Positions 1,368 to 50,071 of a DNA stretch of 64,000 nucleotides are shown one piece after another. Positions within the stretch are counted from its first letter, which is position 1; each line of letters begins with the position of its first letter. The notes beneath the pieces are model-generated. The model was given only the letters and a program-made list of their open reading frames with translations. It made no database searches and was not told the origin of the DNA. Source of the DNA: Cytophagales bacterium (GTDB lineage: Bacteria > Bacteroidota > Bacteroidia > Cytophagales > Cytophagaceae); the NCBI GenBank assembly GCA_004294225.1, contig REBA01000009.1, positions 1 through 64,000 of the forward strand, read 5' to 3'. Both the position numbers and the translations under genes were made by a program.

Positions 1368-1436
1368 TGTGGTATAAATGCAATCTTGACGATTAGTTTA
1401 TTATGAAATTTAATTGATTTAAAATTGTAATTAAAT

Positions 1437-1465
1437 AAAAAGACGGAATCCGTTTCCGTCTTTTT
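1437..1465 (-). terminator. Intrinsic terminator of the 33-residue microprotein gene
   Basis: A perfect 12-bp inverted repeat (AAAAAGACGGAA / TTCCGTCTTTTT) with a 5-nt loop. On the minus strand the stem ends in a T run and lies 27 nt after the stop codon of the microprotein, so it closes that unit before the DUF4286 gene starts at 1367. Confidence 0.85.
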
Positions 1466-1491
1466 ATTGAGAACCATAAATAGAATAAACT

Positions 1492-1593
1492 CTATTTACC
1501 CGCTTTTTTAGCAGCTTTAGCAGCTCTTTTCTCTTTTAAGCTTTTAGTGGGCTCTTTTTTTGTTTCTTTTTTTGCGTCTTGTGATTTTGACAT
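1492..1593 (-). CDS. Lysine/alanine-rich 33-residue microprotein with a full Shine-Dalgarno
   Basis: Short reading frame of 34 codons starting ATG TCA AAA TCA and ending in TAG. The product begins MSKSQDAKKETKKEP and ends in a K/A/R helix-like tail (EKRAAKAAKKAGK); about 13 of 33 residues are Lys or Arg, and there is no hydrophobic segment, so it is probably a cytosolic nucleic-acid or ribosome-associated peptide (inference). Support for it being real: a 10-nt SD (AGAAAGGAGG, 1599-1608) 5 nt before the ATG, a candidate promoter at 1651-1680 and a terminator at 1437-1465, giving one compact transcription unit. I do not recognise a named family. It contrasts with every other gene here, none of which has such an SD. 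Confidence 0.75.
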   Translation of the reverse strand: MSKSQDAKKETKKEPTKSLKEKRAAKAAKKAGK

Positions 1594-1598
1594 ATTTT

Positions 1599-1608
1599 CC
1601 TCCTTTCT
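1599..1608 (-). promoter_or_regulatory. Exceptionally strong Shine-Dalgarno for the microprotein
   Basis: Minus-strand AGAAAGGAGG is complementary over 10 nt to the usual 3' end of Bacteroidota 16S rRNA (CCUCCUUUCU), with a 5-nt spacer to the ATG. Bacteroidota ribosomes normally hide the anti-SD, and the other starts in this window are A/T-rich without SD, so this site decides the start and may be regulatory. Confidence 0.85.
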
Positions 1609-1650
1609 TAAGGGTGTATTTAATTGTTCAATTATAATTATTTATTTCTT

Positions 1651-1680
1651 AAAATTTATAATTACTAATTGTTTTTTCAA
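1651..1680 (-). promoter_or_regulatory. Candidate promoter of the microprotein gene
   Basis: Minus strand TTG (1678-1680), 19-nt spacer, TAAATTTT (1651-1658): seven of eight positions of the Bacteroidota -7 element TAnnTTTG, with correct -33 spacing. It predicts a leader of about 50 nt that contains the SD. Confidence 0.55.
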
Positions 1681-2400: not shown

Positions 2401-5400
2401 TTATCTAATAAGATTAATACTTCCAGACAAGGATTGAAGTATTCCTTTTTCATTTTTGTATTTGATTTGCCAAGGATAAACTCCAGTAGGAATAATCTTC
2501 CCAAATGACGTTCCATCCCAAGCTTGGCTTGCATTATTGCTTTGAAATATAATTTCTCCCCAACGATTATAAATGCTTATTTCTTCAAGGTTAGTTTTGT
2601 TGAGCAAGATTTCAAAATAATCGTTTATCCCATCTTGATTTGGGGAAAAACTTTTTGGTACAAATATTCCAGAATTGCAATTATTCCTTAGGTTTAGGCT
2701 GTCTTTTGTTTCACACTTAGAGTTTCTGACGGTGATATAATAGGTGCCATATTCATTTACCTTGTTTTGAGGTATAGGTTTATTCTGAAACAATATTTTG
2801 TAGTCATTAGAACTAGTCAATATTAGAGTATCTAACATTAAACTATCTTGCTCAAAACATATATTTATTTCATTGGATTTGAATTTTAATGGAGTCTTTG
2901 GCCATATATATACATTATGTTCAGTTTCTACAAAACAGTTGTATTCATTGAATCCTTTTACATAGTAGATTTGATTTTGAGTTGGAAAATCTATAAAGAA
3001 ATCTTCTGTGCTTATATTGCCATTGTTCCAACTGTATTCTTTTGCTCCAATAGCACGAATTAGTAATTGTTCGCCTTCACATAAACTGTCTTCCCCTGTC
3101 AATGATAAAGATGGCTTGGGGAATACTTTGATTTGAATACTTTCTTCGTTTTTACAATTGTTTAAAAGCGATGTAAAGGTAATAATTTCGTCTTGGTTAG
3201 GTTTTAGAATCTGAAAACGGCTTGTACTGATATTATTGGGGGTTGAATGACTTGTCCATAAATAGGAATAGGACGGGTTTAGTGTGAAGATGATTGAATC
3301 GCCAAGACATAATGTTGTGTCAGAAGTTTGTTTCTTTGGTGCTTCTTTGATATTTATCATTAAGTTTTCTTCTTTTTGACATGGGTTGTTTTGTTCTGAA
3401 ATTTTTAGAATAAAGTACTGAGTTCTTAATCCAGGATATCCTTGTTTATACCATGTAGGAGAATTGTTGGGCTTGTCTAAGGCAAAAAAAGGTATCCATT
3501 GGTAGCGGTAGTTATCATTTGGAAGCTTTTCTGGTCCAATGAGGATTGAGTCGTTTTCGCAAAGGTTATAATTGTTTGGAAAAGGGTTTGTAATAATGGG
3601 TTTTCCGCTATTGATGAAAATAGTATCTATATAAATACAGCCGTTTATAGATGCTTCTACGATTATACTATCGTTTATTCCAGAGGAAATAGTTTGAGAA
3701 AAATTTTGAGGATTGGTAAATAAGTTACTTGGTTTCCAAGTATAATTAAAAGAGGGGTTAAGACTAATTTTGTAGGATGTTGTGGCACAGAATATAGTGT
3801 CTTTGCCTAATCCAAAAACAGGCAAAGGTAAAATTTTAATAAATATACTATCTTCTAACTTACATGGATTATTCGGAGCTGAAGTGGTTAGAACATAGGT
3901 GTTGTATTGTGTTTGTGCTTTGTATAATGGGCGGCTTATATTTTGGTTTGATATTCCTTGTGCAATATTCCAAGCATAGATATAATTTATATTGGGCTGT
4001 GGACCTATAGAAATGGTATCGTTTTCGCAGATGCTGAGTTTCTTCTGAAAGTCATTATTAATAATTTTTGTTCCGTACCGAATATTTATAGTGTCTGATG
4101 TCATACAAAAGTTGGCATCAATTGTTTCTACAATGTATGTCCCGGGATTTTCAGCTACTAGACTGGGCAGATTGATGTCTATATCATCGTTCCATCGATA
4201 ATAGATGTATTTTTGATTAAAGGCATTTAAGGTAAATGGAGTATATGCTTCGGCACAAATGGTGGTGTCATTACCAATCTTTGGTTTCACAGGTGGTTCA
4301 AACTTTACCCATACAGAATCGCTTGCAAAGCATTCTTCGGTTTGTTTTTGTACATAATACATTCCTGGCTTTTTAGCATAAATAAATACTTTATTACTGA
4401 TATTGATTTTACCTCCAATTCCATTTTCTTTGAATGACCATTGATAATCACTTCCTCCAGCACCTGCAAAGAGGTACACAGAATCTCCTCTGCAACCTAC
4501 ATTAGCCGTATCTGGAAGTTTTAGGTCTATAAAATTGGTAAAGTAGGCCAACTTACCTGTTTCGGGTGCTGATGATACCATGGCAGCGTGAAAGTTTTGA
4601 GCGTTGTTGATTTCAGCTTTAAAAAATATTAAAGAGGTATTATCACCGTAACCAGTTCCTAAAAGACTTTTTCTAAAATCTGCAAGGCTTGCCCCTGCGA
4701 AGGTATATGGTGTTATGTCAAAAAAGCCATATTTCCATTCACCACTAGTATTTGGTACGTCTTTGAAGTCGGTAGCTTTTATAGGGAATTGATAAGGGAG
4801 AAATGAATTTGAAGTGTATTGATTAAAATTATTCTCCCCACCTTTCTTTACGAATAGCATAAACCCATATTTGGATTTATAGAAATTGTGATTGGGCTTG
4901 TTAAGGATATCAGGAACTGTTACAGCATAGTCGGTGGGTAGAAATGTTCTGATACTTTTATTGCCATTGCAATTAATACTTGGTACCAAAGCACCACCTG
5001 GTTGATTGCCCATTCCGGATATTTGATAGACATAAACAGGATTGCTACATTTTACATATTCTGCATCTGTAGCATTTGGAAATATTCGATCATAGGATTG
5101 ACCCGCATTTAGGGTTGCAACAATAGTACCTCCAATATTAATTTCTGTATTGTCATAAACAGCGGTAATAAAATATCTATCTAAGGAGGTGTAGTTTCCC
5201 AAAGCATCTGTATCTCCATACCTTCCTCTTACTAAGATGTATTCACTCCCGATAACTTCTACAGGGATTAGTTGATCGCCGTTAAGGTCAGTAAGATTAT
5301 TGTCATACTTTACTTCATAATTAGTCATGGTTACTGCTATCGGTTTATTAGACTTAATTATTGTGCCAAATAACCTTTGATTTCTTAAGTAAGAGGCAGC

Positions 5401-6015
5401 ACTAACACGATAAGTTTGCCCTCTCGTCATTGAAACTGCGAAGGGCTTTCCAGCAGGGTTTCCATTTTTTAAATTATTAGAAGGGGTAATAATTACAGCA
5501 GTGTTGTTTTCTGTAGCGACAATATCTAATGTGGAACCTTCTCCACTAAGGTCATTGTCCCAAACATCCTGAAAAGGAACTACAAAGGTTGTTCCTAGTC
5601 CATTGAACCCTTTCATTGAGAAGATGTCTGAAGAAGATGGATTAGTTATTTCATAAAAGCAAGTTGATGGCTTAGATACTGTAAAGTTTACAGCCATGCG
5701 GCTAAGGTCTTTAAATTGATTGCGGTCAAAAAAAAGGCTATTAAAACTCCAACCATATTGAATTCCTTCCATTATCATTGCTCCCCAAGCTCTAATACCA
5801 TTTTTAACTTTTCCTTTATTATCGGTATAGAATCTTTGGTGGTAATAGCTCCCTGCTCCTGGATATGAAGAGCTTAGTTTGAAATGAGTAATATTATTAT
5901 TTGGTTTGCTGTATAGATCTGGTAGGGCTATCCAAAAAGCAGTATCTATCTGAGCTCTAGATTTGGTGTTTGCCAGAAGTATTACTAGAAAGAGATATAA
6001 GAATGCTTTTTTCAT
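2401..6015 (-). CDS. Large T9SS type B surface protein with IgGFc-binding-like N-terminal region
   Basis: Secreted protein of 1204 residues. Residues 1-22 are a signal peptide ending SRAQ. About residues 120-480 resemble the IgGFc_binding domain found in many Bacteroidota surface proteins (GTTFVVPFQDVWDND, DIVATENNTAVIITP, RGQTYRV). The middle is a series of Ig/PKD-like modules, each ending in short repeats such as CENDTISIGP and CENDSILIGP. Residues 1116-1204 are a gliding-motility-type CHU_C/type B sorting domain (VPKSFSPNQDGINDYFEI, YNRWGEIIF, AWDGT, GVYPWQI). It should cross the outer membrane through T9SS and stay at the surface or be shed; adhesion is a reasonable but unproved role. It is monocistronic and divergent from the MerR gene. 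Confidence 0.9.
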   Translation of the reverse strand: MKKAFLYLFLVILLANTKSRAQIDTAFWIALPDLYSKPNNNITHFKLSSSYPGAGSYYHQRFYTDNKGKVKNGIRAWGAMIMEGIQYGWSFNSLFFDRNQFKDLSRMAVNFTVSKPSTCFYEITNPSSSDIFSMKGFNGLGTTFVVPFQDVWDNDLSGEGSTLDIVATENNTAVIITPSNNLKNGNPAGKPFAVSMTRGQTYRVSAASYLRNQRLFGTIIKSNKPIAVTMTNYEVKYDNNLTDLNGDQLIPVEVIGSEYILVRGRYGDTDALGNYTSLDRYFITAVYDNTEINIGGTIVATLNAGQSYDRIFPNATDAEYVKCSNPVYVYQISGMGNQPGGALVPSINCNGNKSIRTFLPTDYAVTVPDILNKPNHNFYKSKYGFMLFVKKGGENNFNQYTSNSFLPYQFPIKATDFKDVPNTSGEWKYGFFDITPYTFAGASLADFRKSLLGTGYGDNTSLIFFKAEINNAQNFHAAMVSSAPETGKLAYFTNFIDLKLPDTANVGCRGDSVYLFAGAGGSDYQWSFKENGIGGKINISNKVFIYAKKPGMYYVQKQTEECFASDSVWVKFEPPVKPKIGNDTTICAEAYTPFTLNAFNQKYIYYRWNDDIDINLPSLVAENPGTYIVETIDANFCMTSDTINIRYGTKIINNDFQKKLSICENDTISIGPQPNINYIYAWNIAQGISNQNISRPLYKAQTQYNTYVLTTSAPNNPCKLEDSIFIKILPLPVFGLGKDTIFCATTSYKISLNPSFNYTWKPSNLFTNPQNFSQTISSGINDSIIVEASINGCIYIDTIFINSGKPIITNPFPNNYNLCENDSILIGPEKLPNDNYRYQWIPFFALDKPNNSPTWYKQGYPGLRTQYFILKISEQNNPCQKEENLMINIKEAPKKQTSDTTLCLGDSIIFTLNPSYSYLWTSHSTPNNISTSRFQILKPNQDEIITFTSLLNNCKNEESIQIKVFPKPSLSLTGEDSLCEGEQLLIRAIGAKEYSWNNGNISTEDFFIDFPTQNQIYYVKGFNEYNCFVETEHNVYIWPKTPLKFKSNEINICFEQDSLMLDTLILTSSNDYKILFQNKPIPQNKVNEYGTYYITVRNSKCETKDSLNLRNNCNSGIFVPKSFSPNQDGINDYFEILLNKTNLEEISIYNRWGEIIFQSNNASQAWDGTSFGKIIPTGVYPWQIKYKNEKGILQSLSGSINLIR

Positions 6016-12227: not shown

Positions 12228-13451
12228 ATGATTGTAAATAATAAGAATCATATTAAAGAAATTTTTATTATCTTATTGATTAGTGCTATAATCCTTTATT
12301 TATCTAATATTCTAATAGATGGAAGATTGAATTCTATAGAAAATTTGACTATAGAACTAAGAAGTGCCCCAACAGAATTGCTCTATGATTGGAAAATGAG
12401 CGAAATAGCTCCATTCAAATACAGATTCTTATTTCCTTTTATTGTTAAAAAGACCTATCAAGCATTTTTTAGCCAACCAAATGTAGAAGGTTTTTACTAT
12501 GTTTATCTTTTTTATACCTACTTAAGCCTTTGTTTTGCAGGTGTTTCATTTTACTTTTTGTCGATATTAGTCTACGATAATACCGCTTTTGTAATACTTT
12601 CTATGTTCTTATTTTTCACCTCTTGCCCTATTTTATTTTCTCATATAGTCCCTGTTCATACTAGAGAAGATTTTTTAGCTTATGGTTTGCTCTGCATGGG
12701 TTTGATTTATATTATTAAAAATTACTGGATAGCATATTTATTAATATCAATTTTAGGAGTTTTGTGTAGGGAAACTTTGTTATTGCTTCCTTTTATATAT
12801 TTATTTTTCTCTAATAATCAGTTTCAAAAATTACCAATTAAGCTTATTCTAGCGGCTATTCCTTTTGTGGTATATTTTCTATTAAGATATATTTTAGGAA
12901 CAGAGCACTATGATTATTGGTTAGGGCTGAAGTGGAATATTAAGAGTCTAGAACAAGTAGTTCTTTTCTTTTTTCTTACATTTCATTTATTATGGTTTTT
13001 CTTTATTTTTGAACTGTTTAATCATTCAAAAAACAATAAAGAAAATAGCTCGGGGGGGCTATTGCTTCATCAATCAGCTTTGTCAGCTACTGGCTTGGTT
13101 TTGACCACCACTTTTCTTTTTGCAATATTTAACGAAATCAGAATTCTTTTTCTAATTTTTCCTTGGGTAATCTCATTATCTTCTAGATGGTTAATAAATA
13201 ATAAAGCAACAGTCTGTAGCTATTTTTTAAATAAAAAAAACACACTCTATTTTGTGCTCATTTCTTTGCTTTTTATTCTTCTTGTTTGTGCTTTTCTGAT
13301 GAATGTTAAAAAGCTGGCACAATTTGTCACTTATCCAGTTTTATTAAGTACTTGGATTCCTATTGCTCTGTTTTATATTTACTTATTGGGTTTATCTCTA
13401 CCGTTTATTGTAAAAATTATAAAAAATATAACTAAAGTTAAATTCACATAA
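12228..13451 (+). CDS. Polytopic membrane protein, GT-C-like
   Basis: A 407-residue integral membrane protein with about ten predicted helices and almost no soluble parts. I do not recognise a named family. An N-terminal loop after the first helix (about residues 35-70) contains RSAPTELLYDWKMSEIAPFKYRF, and the later VPVHTREDF is charged and lumenal in position, a layout seen in undecaprenyl-sugar-dependent GT-C transferases. The genomic position between glycosyltransferases and acyl-modifying genes supports a role in glycan assembly, but the sequence alone does not prove transferase activity. Confidence 0.7.
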   Translation: MIVNNKNHIKEIFIILLISAIILYLSNILIDGRLNSIENLTIELRSAPTELLYDWKMSEIAPFKYRFLFPFIVKKTYQAFFSQPNVEGFYYVYLFYTYLSLCFAGVSFYFLSILVYDNTAFVILSMFLFFTSCPILFSHIVPVHTREDFLAYGLLCMGLIYIIKNYWIAYLLISILGVLCRETLLLLPFIYLFFSNNQFQKLPIKLILAAIPFVVYFLLRYILGTEHYDYWLGLKWNIKSLEQVVLFFFLTFHLLWFFFIFELFNHSKNNKENSSGGLLLHQSALSATGLVLTTTFLFAIFNEIRILFLIFPWVISLSSRWLINNKATVCSYFLNKKNTLYFVLISLLFILLVCAFLMNVKKLAQFVTYPVLLSTWIPIALFYIYLLGLSLPFIVKIIKNITKVKFT

Positions 13452-49045: not shown

Positions 49046-50071
49046 TTAATGTTTTTTAAAGGCTGAATTATTGATGAATTCTTTATCAGTAAGGGTTTTT
49101 AGGAATGCGATTAAGTCTGATTTTTGAGTTTCTGAAAGATTCAGCTGCATCACATTTTTTGATTGATTAACGTGGTTCTTACCACCGTTGTTGTAATGCT
49201 CTATTACTTCTTCTAGAGTATTCATACTTCCGTCGTGCATATAAGGTGCTGTTAATTCAATATTTCTAAGACTTGGAACTTTGAATTTTCCTACATCTTT
49301 GAAATGAGTTGTAATTCTAAATCTTCCCATATCGAAATATTTCTCATATATACCATTATTTTCAAAAAGGTTATTGGTGAAATTAAAACCAGAGTGGCAG
49401 TTTGAGCATTGACCTTCATTGAAAAAAATATTCATTCCTTTAAGTTCAGAGCTAGACAATATTTCTTTATTGTTTTGAAAAGCATATTGGTCGTACTTGC
49501 TATTTCCGCTGAGTAGAGTTCTTTCAAAGCTAGCTATTGCTCTGGTAAGTGAAAATAAATCAGGGTTTCTTTTGAAGGCTTTTTGAAATAGGTTGATATA
49601 TTTCTGGTTTCTATTAAGCCTTTTTACAGCTATGTTTGGGTCTAGATTCATTTCTATGGGATTTTCAATTGGGGATAATACTTGTTGTTCCATCGAAAAA
49701 ACACCTCCATCTCTAAAGAAGAAAGATTGATAGGCTAGATTGAAAAGAGGTGGAGCATTCCTTACTCCTGTGCAATCATTAACACCAACACTAAGTTTTC
49801 TTGGATCTGCAAATGATTTTGCTTGAAGGTGGCATGAACTGCAAGATATTGTGGAGTCTAAAGATAAAATTGGGTCAAAGAAAAGCATTTTTCCCAACTC
49901 AATCTTTTCTTTTGTGACTGGATTATCTGAAGGAATATCCATAGTTGGAAACCCTACTGGTACATTTATTGAGTAGGGTATTTCTGGATCAGGTAATTTT
50001 TCTTTCTCTTTTTTTTCTGTACAAGAGAGAAAGGTAAATGCAATTAGAAAAATACAGATTGTTTTTTTCAT
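49046..50071 (-). CDS. Diheme MauG/MbnH-like cytochrome c peroxidase family lipoprotein
   Basis: A 341-residue protein from ATG 50071 with lipoprotein signal MKKTICIFLIAFTFLSC. Two c-heme sites are present: ISCSSCHLQAKSFADP (CxxCH, about residues 77-81) and GQCSNCHSGFNF (second CxxCH). The body shows ELGKMLFFDPILSLD, VGVNDCTGVRNAPPLFNLAYQSFFFRDGG, and FKVPSLRNIELTAPYMHDGSM, the MauG/CCP fold in order. MbnH of this family modifies a tryptophan of MbnP. The start at 50098 is rejected because a palindrome overlaps that 5' end. The gene sits between two MbnP genes. Confidence 0.9.
   Translation of the reverse strand: MKKTICIFLIAFTFLSCTEKKEKEKLPDPEIPYSINVPVGFPTMDIPSDNPVTKEKIELGKMLFFDPILSLDSTISCSSCHLQAKSFADPRKLSVGVNDCTGVRNAPPLFNLAYQSFFFRDGGVFSMEQQVLSPIENPIEMNLDPNIAVKRLNRNQKYINLFQKAFKRNPDLFSLTRAIASFERTLLSGNSKYDQYAFQNNKEILSSSELKGMNIFFNEGQCSNCHSGFNFTNNLFENNGIYEKYFDMGRFRITTHFKDVGKFKVPSLRNIELTAPYMHDGSMNTLEEVIEHYNNGGKNHVNQSKNVMQLNLSETQKSDLIAFLKTLTDKEFINNSAFKKH

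Follow-up and report, generated by a model that had tools for sequence, protein, structure and literature searches.

In the Bacteroidia, where Shine-Dalgarno (SD) sequences are depleted, ribosomes lacking bS21 favor strong or extended SDs, and rpsU typically carries one, with 9–13 bp of pairing to the anti-SD (ASD) and energies below -13 kcal/mol (PMC9976891). Depletion of bS21 raises the output of strong-SD reporters only, and wild-type F. johnsoniae ribosomes bind the extended rpsU SD in complexes of unusual stability, while the same ribosomes give low protein production from a strong-SD template (PMC9976891). SDs on single genes of SD-poor Bacteroidia genomes have likewise been described for rpsR and rplE, with published values of about -7 to -14 kcal/mol (PMC9976891). 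Initiation without an SD has its own determinants in the Bacteroidota, where A residues at positions -3, -12, and -13 are sufficient (PMC6847099).

The window, the 64,000-nucleotide stretch of Cytophagales DNA analyzed here, resembles the rpsU autoregulation of F. johnsoniae and other Bacteroidota in presenting an exceptional SD on one gene for a small basic protein, in an SD-depleted genome that encodes a bS21 with Tyr54, but the gene is not rpsU, the local rpsU lacks an SD, and the strong SD is limited to a single genus. The frame at 1593..1492 of the minus strand (gene 1492..1593) encodes MSKSQDAKKETKKEPTKSLKEKRAAKAAKKAGK, a microprotein of 33 aa with a pI of 10.3 and 12 Lys. The extended SD AGAAAGGAGG (1599..1608, minus strand) stands upstream of the ATG at 1593..1591 with a 5-nt spacer, and its predicted pairing with the ASD tail ACCUCCUUUCU amounts to -16.3 kcal/mol over 10 bp, as computed with an ASD from a family member and an energy program other than that of PMC9976891. 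The ASD is that of G016 (GGATCACCTCCTTTCT), whose genome belongs to the same family, because a search for the 16S 3' end in the metagenome-assembled genome (MAG) of the window species returned nothing. This strength falls within the range of rpsU-type extended SDs and, unlike the published values for rpsR and rplE, belongs to a non-ribosomal gene. The 10-mer occurs a single time in 928,000 strand-bases of the genome, at the microprotein gene, and the strongest of 333 other gene starts sampled over 464 kb reaches -11.4 kcal/mol. The 10-nt SD described in the initial annotation is hence real.

Pairing statistics were obtained on 464 kb, comprising the window and 400 kb of additional stretches, together with a scan of the whole genome for the 7-nt AAGGAGG. 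Gene starts pair with the ASD more weakly (mean -0.55) than mock sites do (-1.48), and AAGGAGG-N3-9-ATG occurs 35 times genome-wide against 56 for the reversed control, so that the description of this genome as SD-less holds. Most of these matches precede no gene; the clear exceptions are the microprotein gene and gltD, both common to the congener, and two further matches precede plausible starts. The gltD gene (glutamate synthase small subunit, identified by eye) carries AAGGAGGTATTRATACATG in both genus genomes (L201, G000:C22:900-2400; L151, G014:C1), at -12.5 kcal/mol. The top of the 333-gene sample is a start resembling rplE by eye, with MANPRLKDKYLKEVAPALVAKFQYKSS (L186, minus strand, base 13248 of the reverse complement; -11.4 kcal/mol), which parallels the SD reported for rplE in other Bacteroidia. 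SD-like sites also precede ATG frames at window positions 49693 (minus strand) and 57069 (plus strand), with -13.8 and -13.1 kcal/mol, and mark candidate starts. In the congener, two related secreted-looking proteins (L161, G014:C33; L167, G014:C59) share the SD-like leader AAAGCCAAAGGAGGTGTAAAATG.

The residue of bS21 that redirects the 16S tail, Tyr54, is conserved in the window species, and its retention, together with the general depletion of SDs, implies that the 16S tail is likely sequestered. The rpsU gene is located elsewhere (G000:C23) and shows no SD in either the window species (-0.3 kcal/mol) or the congener (+1.6 kcal/mol), and most sister genera likewise lack a strong rpsU SD. 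For rpsR, the window species shows no SD (-2.5 kcal/mol), and that of the congener is weak (-6.3 kcal/mol). Since rpsU is devoid of an SD in both genus genomes, the bS21 autoregulatory circuit is apparently missing from this lineage.

Several lines of comparative evidence indicate that the 33-residue frame, as the initial annotation proposed, is a genuine stand-alone gene. The window protein conforms in length and conserved residues to a family of basic microproteins of 31–40 aa (alignments A1 and A3), with consensus MSKxxDxKKExKKxPTKTLKEKRAEKxAKK. Across 30 aligned members, M1, K3, K9, K13, K20-E21-K22, A24, and K26 are invariant, and D6, P15, K17, and K29 nearly so. Because composition alone might produce matches between lysine-rich peptides, seven distant homologs were shuffled 5,000 times each; the true scores were 60–77 bits, against 37.5 for the best shuffle. 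Furthermore, 15 of the 34 codons differ synonymously between the window gene and its congener, and only 3 non-synonymously. Of the 19 genomes from its own family, 13 have a match, with close relatives reaching 83% identity; matches also occur in 138/291 genomes of the order, 37/295 of the class, and 42/274 of the class to which the Xanthomonas genome belongs. Relatives in named genomes include several Xanthomonas species, Pseudoxanthomonas, Arcobacter/Aliarcobacter, Sulfurimonas, Marinicella, Winogradskyella, and Chryseosolibacter, among which isolate labels (Xanthomonas, Arcobacter) are less error-prone than those of MAGs; relatives also appear in MAGs labeled Victivallis/Lentisphaerae, Parachlamydiales (Chlamydiota), Acidobacteria, Desulfobulbaceae, and Dehalococcoidia, labels that can be wrong. 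An Aliarcobacter MAG contains two near-identical copies of the gene (L070, L077), through either duplication or strain mixture. An apparent fusion to a larger protein (locus L252) was rejected, the long frame being a stop-free stretch in GC-rich DNA.

None of the families in Pfam, NCBIfam, and PHROGs was matched by the 30 members at E-values up to 0.1, and a literature search for the peptide motif found no paper. A tblastn search against phage and plasmid sequences gave no match, with a low-complexity filter that may hide a lysine-rich query, and the pattern matches in a scan of viral contigs included no confirmed relative. The family is, by these searches, very widespread, unnamed, and overlooked by the annotation libraries. 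No structure of, or experiment on, any member was found. The predicted structure of the window product consists of two helices (3–12 and 19–32) around the conserved proline (mean pLDDT 73, pTM 0.28), and it most likely corresponds to a flexible N-terminal arm and, after the proline, a basic C-terminal helix expected to bind RNA, probably at or near the ribosome. Our best guess for a putative function is thus binding to RNA or to ribosomes, as suggested by the charge pattern and a few RNA-related neighboring genes. Small basic ribosomal or ribosome-associated proteins include bTHX and SRA, which the microprotein resembles in being very short, lysine-rich, and encoded by a stand-alone gene. Unlike proteins of that type, it has no match among PDB chains in a single-sequence search at E-values up to 10, and its sole match in a PDB profile search spans 10 residues and is attributable to chance. 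The chains of solved ribosomes likewise yielded no sequence match, a result compatible with an unmodeled ribosome-bound peptide.

The initial annotation had assigned the gene a -33/-7 promoter pair, of which the -7 half stands: a -7-like element, TATAATTG (1629..1636, minus strand), is TATCATTG in the congener and lies inside a AAATAAATAATTAT block identical in both. The -33 partner is not convincing, with no TTTG seen at that position, and promoter-like matches in this region are no more frequent than expected by chance (16 vs. 17.9). The 12-bp terminator reported earlier is present as an intrinsic-terminator-like hairpin (1436..1466, minus strand) with a 12-bp stem (1436–1447 with 1455–1466), a 7-nt loop, and a T-run; the congener shares the core AGACGGA..TCCGTCT. 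A leader hairpin that could mask the SD was discarded, amounting to a weak 4-bp stem in the window species (z -1.57) and missing from the congener. Downstream lie genes for a DUF4286 protein (PF14114; 1059..1367, minus strand) and, further on, RsmI, the 16S rRNA (cytidine1402-2'-O)-methyltransferase (TIGR00096; 354..1046, minus strand), but the linkage suggested between these genes and the microprotein gene is seen only in the window genus. No neighborhood is conserved across genera, and none gives a consistent functional clue; a few loci adjoin genes for DEAD-box helicase, S4/pseudouridine synthase, PurT, or RF-1-domain proteins, too few for a conclusion. An Rfam scan of the window returned nothing. 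Elsewhere in the window, positions 2401–6015 of the minus strand encode a secreted-looking protein of 1204 aa, with a C-terminus similar by eye to the C-terminal domains of gliding motility and type IX secretion.

The history of the SD differs from that of the protein. Within the genus, compared here through two genomes, the congener keeps AAAGGAGG at the same distance from the start, with -12.8 kcal/mol over 9 bp, a value borderline for an rpsU-type SD. The SD core is identical at 8 of 8 positions, vs. 10 of 24 in the stretch of leader that separates the SD from the -7-like element, which points to selective retention of the extended SD within the genus. Among Bacteroidota homologs of other genera, none of 64 reaches -6 kcal/mol, a level attained by 29 of 30 homologs outside the Bacteroidota, counts that include close relatives and are not all independent; 20 more order-level loci, some overlapping the 64, agree with the absence of the SD. 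In contrast to an rpsU-type system, the strong SD is thus not retained across related genera. Its absence from the 64 homologs indicates that the protein is in general independent of it: by these comparisons, a widespread protein contrasts with an SD specific to the window genus, where the SD would have been gained or, conceivably, imported. The initial annotation had staked its proposal on conservation of frame and SD among relatives; the frame proved to be conserved more widely than expected, and the SD only in the congener.

We tentatively favor an interpretation in which the SD acquired by this genus on the gene of a widespread basic microprotein makes initiation conditional on 30S subunits with a free 16S tail. 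On this view, translation of the gene proceeds without an SD in the remaining Bacteroidota analyzed, and the window genus has acquired an SD of 9–10 nt that complements the 16S tail. Since the ribosomes of Bacteroidia normally hide this tail, the SD most likely renders initiation conditional, favoring 30S subunits whose tail is free because they are poor in bS21 or newly made. The gene could respond to such ribosomes because the strength of its SD is that of an rpsU-type target, and we infer both that SD-ASD pairing is actually used and that tail-free ribosomes are preferred. The interpretation is weakened by the small number of genomes for the genus, two, by neighborhoods without a consistent functional clue, and by the SD-less rpsU, which leaves control of SDs by bS21 hypothetical in this lineage. 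A further argument against a conditional role of the SD is that A occupies -3, -12, and -13 of this start, which could suffice for SD-independent initiation.

Somewhat unlikely, though deserving serious consideration, is that the SD only boosts constitutive translation, with the 10-bp helix pulling the 16S tail from its pocket on ordinary ribosomes and no regulation involved. The stability of wild-type F. johnsoniae ribosomes on the extended rpsU SD (PMC9976891) is consistent with such a process, and the SDs of rplE and gltD suggest that SDs may occasionally be used here, but the low protein yield of wild-type F. johnsoniae ribosomes on a strong-SD template and the depletion of SDs at gene starts of the window genome argue against it. 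Horizontal transfer from an SD-using bacterium, with the donor SD retained and now idle, appears improbable. The SDs of homologs in other phyla and the different positions of the gene between genera would fit a transfer, and 33 residues are too few to resolve ancestry; the SD core, however, is kept in both congeners despite a diverged leader and 15/34 synonymous codon differences, close relatives in the same family carry the gene, and the -7-like element resembles the Bacteroidota type.

The initial annotation had proposed that the gene may be translated mainly by ribosomes lacking bS21 or with a free ASD, as a sensor or product of that state; read strictly, a dedicated sensor or effector would replace the rpsU circuit in this genus. 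Part of this proposal is supported: the predicted pairing passes the -13 kcal/mol threshold of rpsU-type SDs (PMC9976891), bS21 retains Tyr54, the mechanism has been published, the product is basic, and rpsU itself lacks an SD. The same absence on rpsU tells against bS21 control as such, however, as do the SDs of gltD and rplE and the SD-less homologs, and the congener's value is borderline and contact between the protein and the ribosome only conjectural. With all 64 other-genus Bacteroidota homologs devoid of the SD, the general role of this protein cannot lie in sensing a free ASD, and the model is a testable minority reading to which we assign little probability. Equally doubtful is a rewiring in which the extended-SD channel of bS21-less ribosomes would have passed from rpsU to a microprotein of wide distribution with affinity for 30S subunits that are immature or poor in bS21, turning a sensor of ribosome state to a new output. 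Lastly, that a lysine-rich frame lies by chance behind a fortuitous purine-rich leader, as its shortness and low complexity might suggest, is already refuted by the comparative data, given a family conserved across several phyla, shuffles that never come near the true scores, and the synonymous bias relative to the congener.

Conditional initiation on tail-free 30S subunits, our preferred interpretation, bears on a gene whose family the annotation libraries searched here miss in spite of its very broad distribution. The strongest predicted ribosome-binding site found in the genus is on this microprotein gene, not on rpsU, its usual owner. The family hence provides a natural experiment: its gene is preceded by an SD in phyla that use SDs and lacks one in most Bacteroidota, but has a near-maximal SD in a single Bacteroidota genus with an SD-less rpsU. 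The microprotein gene makes it testable whether bS21 autoregulation is the sole use of SD-ASD pairing in the Bacteroidota, as has been put forward for the Flavobacteriales.
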